64,000 bases of DNA from positions 2,356,001-2,420,000 of the forward strand of contig NZ_JAFQ01000004.1 of NCBI RefSeq assembly GCF_000526215.1, given 5' to 3'. Source of the DNA: Nocardia sp. BMG51109. Lineage in GTDB: Bacteria > Actinomycetota > Actinomycetes > Mycobacteriales > Mycobacteriaceae. The position numbers and the translations under genes were made by a program. Shown piece after piece: positions 49,208-54,745 of the stretch. The number at the start of each line of letters is the position of its first letter. Position 1 is the stretch's first letter. Under the pieces are notes generated by a model. The model saw only the letters and a program-made list of their open reading frames with translations. It was not told the DNA's origin and did not search any database.

Positions 49208-52200
49208 TTACCCCCGCGCCATATCCACGAACCGGCTCAAGTGCAGCTGGTGGGCCACGGTAATGGTGGCGGTGGGACCATTTCGGTGCTTACCCAGAAT
49301 CAGGTCGGCCTCGCCGCCACGAGGGTCGTCACGCTCGAATGCGTCGGGGCGGTGCAGCAGAATGACCATGTCGGCATCCTGTTCCAAAGAGTTGTGCGCT
49401 GAAATGCCTTGTGCGACAAAGTTGTGCGTTCCCGGGACCGTTCCGTCGTAGACGTCCTGTTCGCCCAGGCTGGTGATCTCGACGATCCGGTCCCAGAAGA
49501 CATCGTTGGTCGCCAGCATCTCGATGTCGGCATCCTCCAGCACCGTGGCGACGCGGGCCAAGCGGGCGCGGTTGGGGCCGTGCTTCCACATGGTCGATCC
49601 GCAGAAGCGGGAGTTCATCGCGGCCGCGAATTCCCGATGGGTCATGTGCTCGGTGGCCAAGAGATCCCGGACCTTGTTCCACACCTCCTCGGGCACCGTG
49701 TCGTCATTCGTATGGCGGGCCACCGCCTCGAGTTCCGGAAGGACCGCCGCCCCGGCCACACCGCGGGCGCCGTGGACTCCGATGTCTCGCAGGAAGATCG
49801 TCTGGTTGTCCGCTCCGTCGACCGTGAGGTGCCAGCAGTCGCGATAGCCGGACTCCGTGACGTACTCGATCCGTCCGTGCACCCCGAGCCGTAGCAGCAG
49901 TTGCGCGATTCCGTCGATGAGTTTCCGGCTGGTCGACGCGTAGTAGATGCGGGCCTGTCGGCACGTCCGATCCCAGCGGACCGAGCCGTCGGTGGCCCAC
50001 AGATGCCGGAGAAACAGCGCGACCTGATCATTCGGCAGGGCGAAAATGCGGTCGGGAACGAACTTTTCGTAGCTGCGGAGCCCGAAGATTCCGAGTTCGT
50101 CGAGCCATGCGGCGATCGGGTTGCGTTTATCGCGTGCGAGCCGGTACGGCGCGGGCAATCGGAGGGTGGTAACCCGCGCGGCCGCGTATTCGTCACGGAT
50201 TGCCGTGACGCCGAAGTGTGTAGCGGCGGAGGTAACGGCGGTCAGGTTCTCCTCGTCGATGCTGGTGTATCGAATCGGCTGCCGTTCGACGCACGATCCG
50301 TCGCCGATCATATGAGCGAGCAGTATCACCTCGGCATCGGCCATGCGCTCGGTGTGTACCGGCTCGGGAACCCGGCGCGGGGTGGCCAGCCGGTCGCCGA
50401 TCCGCAACTTGTCCAGGGAAATCCAGCCGTCGACCGTCAGGAACGGGTGGTTGCCCGTTGCCTCCACCTCGCGGCCGGAAGCGAGCCGAAGCCGGAATAC
50501 CTCTTTGCGTCCGCTGGGGAACACCTTCACCATGGGGCGGGCAACCATCCGCATCCGCTCGTCGAGCGACCACACGAGTGGCTGCTCGCCGCCGGTGAGC
50601 AGCTCACCCAGGGTGGTCTCGCCGCCGGTGTCCGCCCGCAGAATTCGCGTCGATGCGGGCATGCAGCCCGACTCGCGCAGGTCGGATACCATGGGGCGCT
50701 TATCTGTTCGCTGTTCCGGTCCGCGGTTCAGCTGGGAGATCGCGACGACCGGAACCTCTAATTCCTTCGCCAGAAGTTTGAGGCTTCGGGAGAATTCCGA
50801 GACTTCCTGCTGGCGGGATTCGACCTTTTTTCCGGACGTCATCAGCTGCATGTAGTCGACCACGACGAGTCGCAGATCGTGGCGCTGCTTGAGCCGCCGC
50901 GCCTTGGCCCGGATCTCCATCATCGTCATATTCGGCGAATCATCGACGAACAGCGGCGCCTCGCTGATCTCACTCATCCTGCGCGCCAGCCGCGTCCAGT
51001 CGTCATCGCTCATCCGCCCGGACCGCATATCTCCGAGCTTGATCTTCGCCTCCGCCGACAACAGGCGCATGACGATCTCGGTCCGGCTCATCTCCAGCGA
51101 GAAGATCACACTGGCCAGCCCGTGCTTCACCGAAGCACTCCGCATGAAATCCATGCCGAGGGTCGAGTTGTGGGTCGGGACCATGGAGTGCCCCGCGAGG
51201 TAGAGGTGCTCAGGGTTGTCCACCTCGACGCAACGCACCGGAATCGGGTCGATCTTCCGGACGTCGACGATCTGCCGAGACTCGTGTCGAACCGTCGCGG
51301 GCACCCGGTGGACAAGTCGATCGTCCGTGTCGCGCAGGGTGTTAGCGATGTCGCCGGTGGTGTGAACGTGGAACGGAGCCCCACCGAAGGCGGAAATGGT
51401 CGGCCACTGGTGTTGTTCGTCCGCGACGATGACCGTTCCGTCGGAGAATTCGACCTCGTAGCACGGGCGCTCGAACATGACCTCGGTGGCGGCGACGACG
51501 CGAGTGGACCGTCCACGGATATCGAGAAGCTCGCCACCGACGGCGATCTCGCCCATGGTGGTCCAGCCCGACGGCGTCGGCACGGGGGTGTCCAGGGCCA
51601 GCGCTTTACCCACACCCGGGCGGGCCGCGACGATGATCATCTGGCCGGGGTGCAGGCCGTTGGTTACCTCGTCCAGCTCGGTGAAGCCGGTGGGGACGCC
51701 GAGGGACATGCCGCCGCGGCTGGCGATGGAGTCGATCTCGTCCATCGTGGGCTGCAGGAGTTCCTCGAGGGGGAGGTAGTCCTCGCTGGAGCGGCGCTCG
51801 GTGACGTCGTAGATCTCGGCCTGGGCTCGGTCGACGACCTCGGCGACGTCCTGGCCGTCGGCGCCGGCGTAGCCGTACTGCACGATGCGGGTGCCGGCCT
51901 CCACCAGACGGCGCAGAATCGACTTCTCCGCGACGATTTCGGCGTAGTAGGAGGCGTTGGCGGCGGTGGGGACGGTCTGGGTCAGCGTGACCAGATAGGG
52001 AGGGCCGCCGATGCGCTTGAGTTCGCCGCGGCGGTCCAGGGCGGCGGCGACGGTGACCGGGTCGGCGGGTTCGCCGCGGCTGTACAGGTCGAGGACGGCG
52101 TCGTAGACGGCCTGATGGGCGGGGCGGTAGAAATCGGCGGGGCGCACCACCTCGACGACGTCGGCGATCGCGTCCTTGCTCAGCAGCATGCCGCCGAGTA

Positions 52201-52300
52201 CCGACTGCTCGGCCGACATGTCGTGCGGCGGCTGGCGGCCGAAATCCTCCCCCTGCGAGTCGGCGTACTCCGAGTGCCCGCGATCGTCGACGACTGCCAC
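49208..52300 (-). CDS. dnaB: Replicative DNA helicase DnaB with two inteins
   Basis: The precursor has 1030 residues; removing both inteins leaves 459, normal for DnaB. The N-terminal domain (EQSVLGGMLLSKDAIADVVE) is followed by the RecA-like domain. Its Walker A motif ARPGVGKST is split after Lys232 by intein 1 (residues 233-378). The Walker B region VVVDYMQLM and ISQLNRGPEQR follow, and then intein 2 (546-970) splits DLRESG from SLEQDAD. The last extein part has ILGKHRNGPT. DnaB unwinds DNA at the replication fork, so activity depends on both inteins splicing. It lies downstream of the rpsF-ssb-rpsR-rplI unit, as in other actinobacteria, separated by a long gap. Confidence 0.97.
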   Translation of the reverse strand: MAVVDDRGHSEYADSQGEDFGRQPPHDMSAEQSVLGGMLLSKDAIADVVEVVRPADFYRPAHQAVYDAVLDLYSRGEPADPVTVAAALDRRGELKRIGGPPYLVTLTQTVPTAANASYYAEIVAEKSILRRLVEAGTRIVQYGYAGADGQDVAEVVDRAQAEIYDVTERRSSEDYLPLEELLQPTMDEIDSIASRGGMSLGVPTGFTELDEVTNGLHPGQMIIVAARPGVGKALALDTPVPTPSGWTTMGEIAVGGELLDIRGRSTRVVAATEVMFERPCYEVEFSDGTVIVADEQHQWPTISAFGGAPFHVHTTGDIANTLRDTDDRLVHRVPATVRHESRQIVDVRKIDPIPVRCVEVDNPEHLYLAGHSMVPTHNSTLGMDFMRSASVKHGLASVIFSLEMSRTEIVMRLLSAEAKIKLGDMRSGRMSDDDWTRLARRMSEISEAPLFVDDSPNMTMMEIRAKARRLKQRHDLRLVVVDYMQLMTSGKKVESRQQEVSEFSRSLKLLAKELEVPVVAISQLNRGPEQRTDKRPMVSDLRESGCMPASTRILRADTGGETTLGELLTGGEQPLVWSLDERMRMVARPMVKVFPSGRKEVFRLRLASGREVEATGNHPFLTVDGWISLDKLRIGDRLATPRRVPEPVHTERMADAEVILLAHMIGDGSCVERQPIRYTSIDEENLTAVTSAATHFGVTAIRDEYAAARVTTLRLPAPYRLARDKRNPIAAWLDELGIFGLRSYEKFVPDRIFALPNDQVALFLRHLWATDGSVRWDRTCRQARIYYASTSRKLIDGIAQLLLRLGVHGRIEYVTESGYRDCWHLTVDGADNQTIFLRDIGVHGARGVAGAAVLPELEAVARHTNDDTVPEEVWNKVRDLLATEHMTHREFAAAMNSRFCGSTMWKHGPNRARLARVATVLEDADIEMLATNDVFWDRIVEITSLGEQDVYDGTVPGTHNFVAQGISAHNSLEQDADMVILLHRPDAFERDDPRGGEADLILGKHRNGPTATITVAHQLHLSRFVDMARG
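49391..50665 (-). mobile_element. DnaB intein 2: 425 residues with LAGLIDADG endonuclease
   Basis: It starts with Cys (CMPASTRIL) directly after DLRESG and ends SAHN directly before SLEQDAD. Block B is GNHPFLTVDGW. A LAGLIDADG endonuclease is in the middle with motifs LLAHMIGDGS and FLRHLWATDGS, both with their acidic residue, so homing activity may persist. The C-terminal splicing blocks read VYDGTVPGTHNFVAQG and ISAHN. This is a canonical class 1 intein. The insertion site is the one used by the Synechocystis DnaB intein (extein continues S[IL]EQ). Confidence 0.93.
51167..51604 (-). mobile_element. DnaB intein 1: 146-residue class-3-type mini-intein in the Walker A motif
   Basis: It begins with Ala (ALALDTPVPTPSGW) instead of Cys or Ser and ends MVPTHN before Ser. 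It has no endonuclease. Trp67, Cys125 (VRCVEVDN) and Thr144 (PTHN) match the Trp-Cys-Thr triad that defines class 3 inteins, where the internal Cys starts splicing. The block B His is at DEQHQW. The insertion lies between Lys and Ser of GVGKS, so unspliced DnaB cannot bind ATP. Confidence 0.88.
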
Positions 52301-53014: not shown

Positions 53015-53470
53015 TCACTCGGCGGCGACGACCTCCAGGTCGAACTTGGCGGCCACATCGGGGTGCAGGTGCACGACGACGCCGTGCTTGCCGGTGCTCT
53101 TGATGTGCGCCTTGGGCAGTTCGATGCTGCGCTTGTCCAGCACCGGGCCGCCGGCGGTCTTGACGGCGCCCGCGACGTCGGCCGGGGTGACCGAGCCGAA
53201 CAGCTTCCCGGTGCCCGCGGTCTTGACCGACAGCGAGACGCCCGTCAGGCCCTCGATGGCCTGCTTCAGCTCGTTGGCGTGGTCGAGATCGCGCACGCGG
53301 CGGGCGTCCTGTGCCCGCCGGATGCCCTCGACCTGCTTCTGCGCGCCCCGGGTGGCCGGGATGGCCAGGCCGCGCGGGAGCAGGAAGTTACGGCCGTAGC
53401 CGTCCTTGACCTCCACGGTGTCGCCGGGCGCACCGAGATTGTCCACATCCGCAGTCAGAATCAGCTTCAT
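53015..53470 (-). CDS. rplI: 50S ribosomal protein L9
   Basis: This 151-residue protein begins [20 protein letters not shown], with [17 protein letters not shown], the L9 signature. The long central helix ([20 protein letters not shown]) and the C-terminal domain ([20 protein letters not shown]) are complete. GAGGGAGG precedes the ATG. L9 binds 23S rRNA at the base of the L1 stalk. It is last in the operon, followed by a strong terminator. Confidence 0.98.
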
Positions 53471-53487
53471 CGTCGTGTGCCTCCCTC

Positions 53488-53757
53488 TCAGCGAGCCGTG
53501 GACACGTACGGCAGCAGCGCCATCTCGCGGCTGTTCTTGACCGCGACGGCGACATCGCGCTGGTGCTGCACGCAGTTGCCGGTGACACGGCGGGCACGGA
53601 TCTTGCCGCGATCGCTGACGTACTTCCGCAGCAGCGTCGTGTCCTTGTAGTCGATGTCGGCTGCCTTGTTGCCGTTCTTGGCGGCAGCCTTGCTCTCCTT
53701 GCAGAAGGCACACGCCTTCTTCTTCAGCACCTTTTCGCGCGCCGGTGCTTTGGCCAT
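53488..53757 (-). CDS. rpsR: 30S ribosomal protein S18, cysteine-containing form
   Basis: This 89-residue protein reads [20 protein letters not shown] at the start, with [20 protein letters not shown] and the [11 protein letters not shown] signature. CAFC plus Cys of GNC and a further ligand make it a zinc-binding (C+) form. Many actinobacteria have a second, cysteine-free S18 elsewhere, induced by zinc starvation. It lies 17 bases before rplI. Confidence 0.97.
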
Positions 53758-53811
53758 TGTCTTCTACTCCGTCGTGTTCGGGAGCCGTTGGGCCCCAGTG
53801 TGAAAGCCGTT

Positions 53812-54351
53812 CTAGAACGGCGGTTCGTCGTCCATTGCGCCGCCTCCGAAGGAGCCGGCTGCGGGGGCGTTGCCCCAGGGGTCGTCGCCGGCGGAGTTCT
53901 GCTGTCCGCCGCGAGCGCCGCCACCGGAGCCGCCGAAGCCCCCACCACCGCCGGAACCACCGAAACCGCCGCCGCCACCGCCGCCGCGTGTCGTCTTGTT
54001 GACCTTCGCGGTGGCGTAGCGCAGGGAGGGGCCGATCTCGTCGACCTCGAGCTCCACAACCGTGCGCTTCTCGCCCTCGCGGGTTTCGAAGGAGCGCTGC
54101 CGAAGTCGGCCGCTCACGATCACTCGGGTGCCTCGGGTCAGGCTTTCGGCGACGTTCTCCGCAGCATCACGCCAGATGTTGCAGCGCAGGAAAAGCGCCT
54201 CGCCGTCTTTCCATTCGTTGGTATTACGGTCGAATATGCGGGGCGTCGAGGCCACGGTGAAGTTGGCCACCGCCGCGCCCGCGGGCGTGAATCGAAGTTC
54301 CGGGTCGGCCGTCAAATTTCCGATGACGGTGATGACCGTGTCGCCTGCCAT
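53812..54351 (-). CDS. ssb: Single-stranded DNA-binding protein
   Basis: This 179-residue protein has an N-terminal OB fold (residues 1-110: [38 protein letters not shown]), then a Gly-rich linker with GGSGGGG repeats. It ends MDDEPPF, the acidic tip that recruits partners such as the replisome. It lies between rpsF and rpsR as in most actinobacteria. Confidence 0.98.
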
Positions 54352-54454
54352 GGTTCCTCCTGCTGTCCGGTGAAGTCCGCTGATCCCGTGTCGCGCTAGA
54401 GCCTAGAGACAGGTACCGACGACTACGAGGGCGGTTGGTCCTCCGACAGGGCGC

Positions 54455-54745
54455 TTACTTCTTGACGTTGCGCAGCACCTTGGTGCGCAGCACCGACTCG
54501 TTCAGCCCCAGCTGGCGGTCGAGCTCGCTCACCGTGTCGGGCTTGGCCGTCAGATCGATGACCGCGTAGATGCCCTCGCTCTGCTTGGAGATCTCGTAGG
54601 CCAGCCGGCGGCGGCCCCAGATGTCGACCTTGTCGACCTTGCCACCCTGCTGGGAAATCACGGTGAGCATCTTGTCCAGGTTCGGACCGACGGTGCGCTC
54701 ATCCAGGGTTGGATCGAGAATGACCATCACTTCGTATTGACGCAC
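54455..54745 (-). CDS. rpsF: 30S ribosomal protein S6
   Basis: This 96-residue protein starts [20 protein letters not shown], contains [20 protein letters not shown] and ends [12 protein letters not shown]. It is complete and typical. It heads the rpsF-ssb-rpsR-rplI operon; an AGGAGG-type site lies 8-10 bases before the ATG. The gene upstream is divergent. Confidence 0.98.

Follow-up and report, generated by a model that had tools for sequence, protein, structure and literature searches.

The 64,000-nucleotide stretch analyzed here (the window), positions 2,356,001 to 2,420,000 of contig NZ_JAFQ01000004.1 from Nocardia sp. BMG51109, encodes on its minus strand the replicative helicase DnaB, whose open reading frame (ORF) is interrupted by two inteins. 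Pfam detects the DnaB N and C domains in the ORF, NCBIfam recognizes a replicative helicase and intein ends, and the Pfam models Intein_splicing and LAGLIDADG_3 match over intein 2 only. The three exteins add up to 459 amino acids (aa), recomputed from the ORF and in agreement with the original prediction. In the order of the reading frame, the features are:

49208..52300, minus strand: dnaB ORF, replicative helicase precursor, GTG start, 1030 aa plus stop codon, identified by Pfam and NCBIfam
51605..52300, minus strand: N-extein, 232 aa, ending with GVGK of Walker A and matching the Pfam DnaB N domain
51167..51604, minus strand: intein 1, class 3 mini-intein of 146 aa, no endonuclease, site b (P-loop), ORF residues 233-378
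51461..51463, minus strand: Cys48 codon of intein 1 (the residue reported in Mycobacterium smegmatis to form a disulfide with the catalytic Cys)
51404..51406, minus strand: Trp67 codon of intein 1 (W of the WCT triad, block B)
51230..51232, minus strand: Cys125 codon of intein 1 (block F nucleophile, C of WCT)
51173..51175, minus strand: Thr144 codon of intein 1 (block G, T of WCT), with His145-Asn146 next
50666..51166, minus strand: middle extein, 167 aa from the ORF parse, with the +1 Ser of Walker A first and DLRESG last
49391..50665, minus strand: intein 2, class 1 (Cys1), 425 aa, LAGLIDADG endonuclease, site a, ORF residues 546-970
50297..50323, minus strand: first LAGLIDADG motif, LLAHMIGDG
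49985..50011, minus strand: second LAGLIDADG motif, LRHLWATDG
49208..49390, minus strand: C-extein, 60 aa plus stop codon, from the ORF parse

Intein 1 is inserted exactly between GVGK and S, before STLG. It begins with Ala, which leaves no nucleophile at position 1, carries the class 3 triad W67/C125/T144, ends with H145-N146, and is followed by a +1 Ser. The length of 146 residues, the lack of an endonuclease, the initial Ala, and the insertion between Lys and Ser of GVGKS had all been proposed earlier, and each is exact in the ORF parse. A phmmer search, whose query was offset by one residue at both ends, aligns intein 1 along its length with crystallized class 3 DnaB inteins (6rix/6riy, E ~9e-44; 6bs8, E 3e-42), a degree of sequence similarity that excludes chance as the source of the match. 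Trp67, Cys125, and Thr144 align with the WCT residues of 6bs8 and 6rix, placing W67 in block B and C125 in block F, where M. smegmatis DnaBi1 has W67/C118 and M. chimaera DnaB1 has W67/C124; the assignment to class 3 thus holds. Residues A1, C48, D62, H65, W67, T-3, H-2, and N-1 are present in all 110 site-b inteins compared (86 from Nocardia and 24 from elsewhere in the family, these being taken from the 30 best-matching loci, a choice that favors close relatives). All 110 also have the block F Cys, at position -22 in 108 and one residue closer to the C-terminus in two. Two overlapping sets agree: A1 and C48 occur in 118/118 parsed proteins (of 120), and Cys48 in 44/44 inteins read from named records (80 loci, of which 14 were unparsed and nine more had site b unread).

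Intein 2 lies between DLRESG and SLEQDAD and shows the features of class 1, with C1, block B T70-H73, a terminal H424-N425, and a +1 Ser. It scores 82.0 bits against Intein_splicing (cut-off 35.8) and 84.1 bits against LAGLIDADG_3 (cut-off 22.5), and both LAGLIDADG motifs contain acidic residues, bearing out the earlier description of a normal 425-residue Cys1 intein with both endonuclease motifs intact. Cys1, the block B Thr and His, and the terminal His-Asn are conserved in 46/46 in-gene intein 2 sequences (41 from Nocardia and five from a second genus; the four copies under 420 aa, out of 45 in Nocardia, were excluded).

According to Kelley et al. 2018 (PMC6195587), M. smegmatis DnaBi1/DnaBi2 comprises a class 3 intein (W67, C118, T137) lacking a homing endonuclease (HEN), which comes first and whose +1 Ser is shared with the P-loop, and a class 1 HEN intein, which comes second. 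The window gene almost certainly encodes a doubly intein-bearing DnaB of this kind, spliced to a 459-aa helicase. Class 1 splicing, using Cys1, the +1 Ser, and Asn425, would remove intein 2. Intein 1 would leave by class 3 splicing, in which Cys125 attacks the N-terminal junction, the intermediate passes to the +1 Ser, and Asn146 cyclizes; the ligated product would have its Walker A motif restored. The earlier claim that two splicing chemistries must act on one helicase is supported by these class signatures. As the sole endonuclease carrier, intein 2 could probably home into an empty site a, and intein 1 would rely on inheritance or recombination. We infer that both inteins splice in the Nocardia host, with splicing order and redox sensing as in M. 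smegmatis, and that the unspliced precursor, earlier proposed to be unable to bind ATP, is inactive. The helicase appears to be the only one of its type: a DnaB profile search of the genome found no second DnaB, returning three pieces of the dnaB ORF and one weak match (E 1.2e-4, profile positions 3-66, passing the cut-off only with its neighbors) that is RadA (TIGR00416, 496 bits). The nearest proteins to the window DnaB include those of N. vaccinii and N. transvalensis.

Both inteins evolve under purifying selection, with a median ratio of nonsynonymous to synonymous substitution rates (dN/dS) of 0.167 for intein 1 (69 pairs) and 0.087 for intein 2 (165 pairs). Constraint on intein 1 is far looser than that on the N-extein (0.043) and the middle extein (0.012) in the same 69 pairs, as would be expected of a tolerated passenger, not of a finely tuned regulator; for comparison, rplI has a dN/dS of 0.152 (66 pairs).

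We parsed the dnaB gene of 150 Nocardia genomes, of which one (G385, at a contig end) was unparsed, leaving 149, and typed intein 1 by length as mini (144-147 aa) or HEN-type (298-417 aa). Neither intein is present in 49 genomes, intein 2 alone in 14, mini-intein 1 alone in seven, mini-intein 1 with intein 2 in 22, HEN-type intein 1 alone in 48, and HEN-type intein 1 with intein 2 in nine. Both sites are thus occupied in 31/149, with 22 sharing the state of the window, and every combination of the two inteins is found, often in close relatives, which switch between mini-intein 1 plus intein 2 and empty or HEN-type states. The window's arrangement recurs in named records, for example those of N. 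macrotermitis, N. anaemiae, and N. transvalensis. Family-wide, intein 1 matches in 178/301 genomes at E <= 0.001, weak matches counted. The HEN-type intein 1 makes up 57/149; LAGLIDADG_3 is detected in 57/57 inserts, and an acidic residue is kept in the first motif of 55/57 and in the second of 55/57. Class 3 P-loop inteins with a LAGLIDADG endonuclease therefore occur in Nocardia (e.g., L039:5250-6500), and a double zinc ribbon model matches 10 of the 57. A 2016 paper (PMC5050341) states that the DnaB-b inteins studied there have no endonuclease; in Nocardia, site-b inteins with an endonuclease are common.

Several further loci were observed. A record titled Acidobacteria metagenome-assembled genome (L221) encodes a DnaB with mini-intein 1 and intein 2 whose best segment is 76% identical to that of the window; it may perhaps be an actinobacterial sequence in a mixed bin. 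A second DnaB-like gene, outside the main dnaB, carries a class 3 intein at the same P-loop site in L186 (G400; 162 aa) and L201 (G438; 130 aa), and another DnaB-like intein gene (L185, G316) is known by search match only.

The window dnaB lies downstream of the gene order rpsF-ssb-rpsR-rplI, whose members served as flank markers for a tree of 147 genomes (1371 columns, quick method):

53015..54745, minus strand: rplI, rpsR, ssb, and rpsF (with intergenic gaps), upstream of dnaB, named from their own sequences

On this tree, mini-intein 1 needs at least 26 changes, HEN-type intein 1 at least 45, and intein 2 at least 34; all three are therefore patchy. Their occurrence is not independent. In Nocardia, intein 2 accompanies mini-intein 1 in 22/29 genomes, versus 23/120 of the others, and HEN-type intein 1 in 9/57, versus 36/92 of the others (Fisher p 0.003). 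Among 20 independent pairs differing in mini-intein 1, intein 2 differs in the same direction in 11.5 and in the opposite direction in 0.3 on average (median p 0.001), whereas among 34 such pairs differing in HEN-type intein 1, the corresponding values are 2.7 and 10.6 (p 0.057). A model of dependent evolution is favored for mini-intein 1 and intein 2, with twice the log-likelihood difference (2ΔlnL) equal to 33.65 for one degree of freedom (df) and a mini-intein gain rate of zero without intein 2. For HEN-type intein 1 and intein 2, the dependence is negative (p ~0.001), and the gain rate of intein 2 is zero when the HEN-type is present. Adding part of the N-extein to the tree left these results unchanged; the fitted rates are very high, too high to give the order or direction of gains and losses. 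The pattern recurs in raw counts from 248 genomes of a second genus of the same family, probably Mycobacterium, where intein 2 accompanies mini-intein 1 in 45/76 genomes versus 13/172 others and HEN-type intein 1 in 0/79; types here were set by match pattern and frame length, not by reading each locus, and carry no tree control. In these counts, G464 and G608 were taken as intein 2 carriers across contig edges, G538 was corrected on reading its locus, and G438 was classified by its main dnaB. The HEN-less intein 1 accompanies intein 2 and the HEN-type intein 1 avoids it, a new observation that bears on a question left open in a 2023 study (PMC10643990).

A checkpoint role and neutral persistence are two possible reasons why intein 1 is kept. 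As proposed for M. smegmatis, intein 1 could be retained because oxidation linking Cys48 and Cys125 stalls splicing, and hence replication. In the work of Kelley et al. (PMC6195587), oxidation produces a Cys48-Cys118 disulfide, and the authors model splicing as pausing replication; these redox data favor the idea, as does the occurrence of Cys48 and the block F Cys both in the window and in all 110 site-b inteins. The same paper, however, reports that every change of Cys48 abolished splicing, so the invariance of this residue need not reflect sensing. Site b is empty in 63/149 Nocardia dnaB genes, making any function of intein 1 dispensable, and intein 1 evolves fast. The presence of C48 and C125 would permit a redox switch without proving one, and we regard such a checkpoint as rather unlikely to be what maintains intein 1. 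That Cys48 is invariant in all site-b inteins read is new, and contrary to its description as non-conserved in PMC6195587; it suggests that, where redox inhibition does occur, DnaB site-b inteins may share it generally. Alternatively, intein 1 could be an old, immobile passenger that is kept only because it is hard to remove exactly, and that accompanies intein 2 because both are lost together upon replacement of the dnaB allele. The intermediate dN/dS of intein 1, the tracking of flank-gene distances by mini-intein distances (r 0.71), and the flipping of close relatives between mini-intein 1 plus intein 2 and the empty or HEN-type states all speak for this neutral scenario. However, the N-extein upstream of intein 1 shows little extra divergence in pairs of this kind, and mini-intein 1 undergoes 26 changes on the flank tree against three on the intein tree, so vertical inheritance would entail very many losses; we consider the scenario rather unlikely. 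The GC content at third codon positions (GC3) of the flanks was considered as a mark of recent import beside the inteins and rejected as unspecific, because GC3 drops along dnaB toward its 3′ end whatever the intein state. Across the 150 Nocardia genes, it is ~0.85-0.91 in the N-extein and declines to ~0.7-0.76 over the final 99 bp before site a, in all states including the empty one, and is still lower (0.52-0.60) in those 99 bp in hosts of the free-standing genes described below.

The association between the inteins could also arise from homing itself. In one scenario, the HEN-less intein 1 spreads or persists by being carried along in gene conversion driven by the endonuclease of intein 2, which lies 501 bp from it. 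The tree-controlled tie between mini-intein 1 and intein 2 in Nocardia, with its parallel in the second genus, is what such hitchhiking predicts, and adding joint gain and loss to an otherwise independent model explains most of the association (2ΔlnL 29.28, 2 df). Yet models with joint steps are not favored over dependent single steps, with a corrected Akaike information criterion worse by 4.1-4.4 in one run (three comparisons) and by 6.5 in another. Pairs differing at both sites do show extra divergence (permutation p 0.0004; 13 vs 14 disjoint pairs, p 0.012), but once split it proves local, raised in the 249 bp after intein 1 when the mini-intein differs (p 0.034). The 90 bp that follow intein 2 show the same when intein 2 differs (p 0.019), and positions 250-501 of the middle extein show no excess; five of 24 coefficients fall below 0.05, uncorrected. 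Mini-intein distances track the flank genes and, with the flanks removed, do not follow intein 2 (r 0.13, p 0.15). No donor was found either: the nearest genome carries the mini-intein for 10/29 by middle extein and for 12/29 by flank genes. Hitchhiking is rather unlikely in our view, and block co-conversion of both inteins with the intervening DNA was dropped, as its early support was lost when the middle extein was halved and the effects of the two inteins were separated. A second scenario holds that nearby HEN inteins interfere in homing, leading to mutual exclusion and leaving mostly doubles with a HEN-less intein 1. Consistent with one active endonuclease per dnaB, the HEN-type intein 1 avoids intein 2 in both genera, with tree control in Nocardia, and its inserts are endonucleases by sequence; moreover, according to Turgeman-Grott et al. 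2023 (PMC10643990), two HEN inteins in the MCM helicase gene of Haloferax interfere in homing experimentally, and co-homing was unsupported. Against it stand the double-HEN alleles themselves: Nocardia has nine, and of 66 parsed named records 24 are of this type, including 18 from other genera such as Geodermatophilus, Blastococcus, and Kibdelosporangium, although these records were picked by resemblance to a double-intein query. Exclusion, if real, is therefore not general. HEN loss is also rare: the mini/HEN-type split requires three changes on the intein tree (weakly resolved, 116 columns), so it does not recur in response to intein 2, and repeated HEN loss was rejected as the cause of the association. 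Exclusion between endonucleases is possible, though in our estimate less likely than not. At present, local conversion at each site combined with partial exclusion between the two HENs fits best in both genera; joint movement of the two inteins is a possibility, and the tests did not bear out their transfer as one block. The same 2023 study argues that the M. smegmatis dnaB mini-intein, if it homes at all, must depend on co-homing, and urges research on this point.

A lineage of intein 2 also exists outside the dnaB reading frame. In 8/150 Nocardia loci, an intein-2-like match starts 41-127 bp past the dnaB stop codon, and site a is empty in 8/8; two of these copies are incomplete, one truncated (G065) and one cut by the contig end (G379). 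Genomes G335 and G421 have an intein-2-like gene with intact nuclease motifs elsewhere in the genome (L188, L189), together with a shortened in-gene intein 2 of 344 aa (G335, L125) or 345 aa (G421, L116), and partial matches occur in G194 and G363. In the second genus, intein-2-like ORFs outside the dnaB frame are present in 10/248 genomes, with a fragment in G580. Eight of these 10 loci follow a dnaB with an empty site a, the match starting 13-266 bp past the stop codon (in two pieces in G477); the G468 copy follows dnaB, contains a stop, and has site a unparsed, and at the G187 locus dnaB was unrecognized. The free-standing genes directly after dnaB are:

Nocardia: intein-2-derived gene in loci L069, L070, L073, L122, L126, and L175
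Second genus: intein-2-derived gene in loci L190-L196 and L199

These genes keep the nuclease and lose the splicing residues. Among 15 intact copies, compared with the 46 in-gene sequences by motifs judged from printed strings, Cys1 is present in 1/15, the block B His in 2/15, and the terminal Asn in 1/15, each versus 46/46 in-gene, and the LAHMIGDGS and TDG strings are found in 15/15. Three free-standing proteins score 61.7, 39.1, and 20.3 bits against Intein_splicing and 75-86 bits against LAGLIDADG_3. Constraint is reversed accordingly: in-gene, the splicing parts have a lower dN/dS (0.054-0.056) than the HEN (0.104), whereas in pairs of free-standing copies dN/dS is 0.05-0.17 for the nuclease part (finite in 8/9 pairs) and 0.13-0.59 for the N-terminal part (7/9), with many pairs near saturation. 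In a quick tree, with weak deep branches and several long-branched free-standing copies, the copies from Nocardia nest within the intein 2 group of that genus (starred in the tree) and the others among second-genus sequences. Because the copies group with their own genus, a single origin is unlikely, and the free-standing genes probably arose more than once. One copy (G353, L175) retains Cys1, the terminal Asn, and the block B His and is preceded by DLRKSG, a remnant of the extein, making it an apparent intermediate between intein and free-standing gene.

The host sites carry unusual bases. At several synonymous positions around the empty site a, seven or eight of the eight Nocardia hosts have a base that is rare in 97 other empty sites, such as T at -15 (7/8 hosts vs 8/97). 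Such bases would be expected if the host site had to withstand cutting; an imported C-extein common to the hosts (GC3 ~0.5) would explain them equally well, the C-extein GC3 being 0.49-0.53 in hosts of free-standing genes versus 0.69-0.82 in other states. We suggest, as a possibility short of even odds, that dnaB in both genera hosts a system of interacting homing elements, in which a HEN-less class 3 intein depends on a HEN-bearing neighbor and the double-HEN state is disfavored, and in which the intein 2 lineage has more than once become a free-standing, non-splicing endonuclease beside its target, probably able to act on site a of alleles without intein 2. Among the titles and abstracts listed by searches of open-licence papers, none describes free-standing genes derived from intein 2, which is not proof of absence in print.

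Yeast HO is an intein-derived free endonuclease, and free-standing homing endonucleases exist. The genes after dnaB resemble them in being intein-derived, with nuclease motifs kept and splicing residues lost, and differ in that they are bacterial, lie immediately after the very gene that hosts the intein, and are predicted nucleases; they look like a bacterial case of an intein becoming a stand-alone homing gene. Haloferax MCM-a/MCM-d, as described in PMC10643990, also places two close inteins in a replicative helicase gene and raises the same question of homing interference or co-homing. There, however, both inteins mostly carry a HEN and the helicase is archaeal, whereas dnaB often has a HEN-less intein that accompanies the other one. 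M. chimaera DnaB1 (6rix, 6riy), whose active site is given as C124-H65-T143 in PMC7664689, matches intein 1 over its full length, with its W67, H65, C124, and T143 corresponding to W67, H65, C125, and T144 of the window, but is one residue shorter up to the catalytic Cys and comes from another genus. The closest precedent is M. smegmatis, which shares with the window the gene, the sites (P-loop site b and motif H4 site a), the intein classes, the HEN pattern, the +1 Ser at both sites, and Cys48 with the block F Cys. It differs in genus and in the length of intein 1 (139 aa, versus 146 aa in the window), and the Nocardia case is known from sequence alone. Because Kelley et al. 2018 (PMC6195587) describe both, the arrangement in the window is of a known kind and the replication checkpoint is an existing hypothesis. 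The window gene repeats that arrangement; what is new lies outside it, in the comparative pattern of the two inteins and in the free-standing genes.

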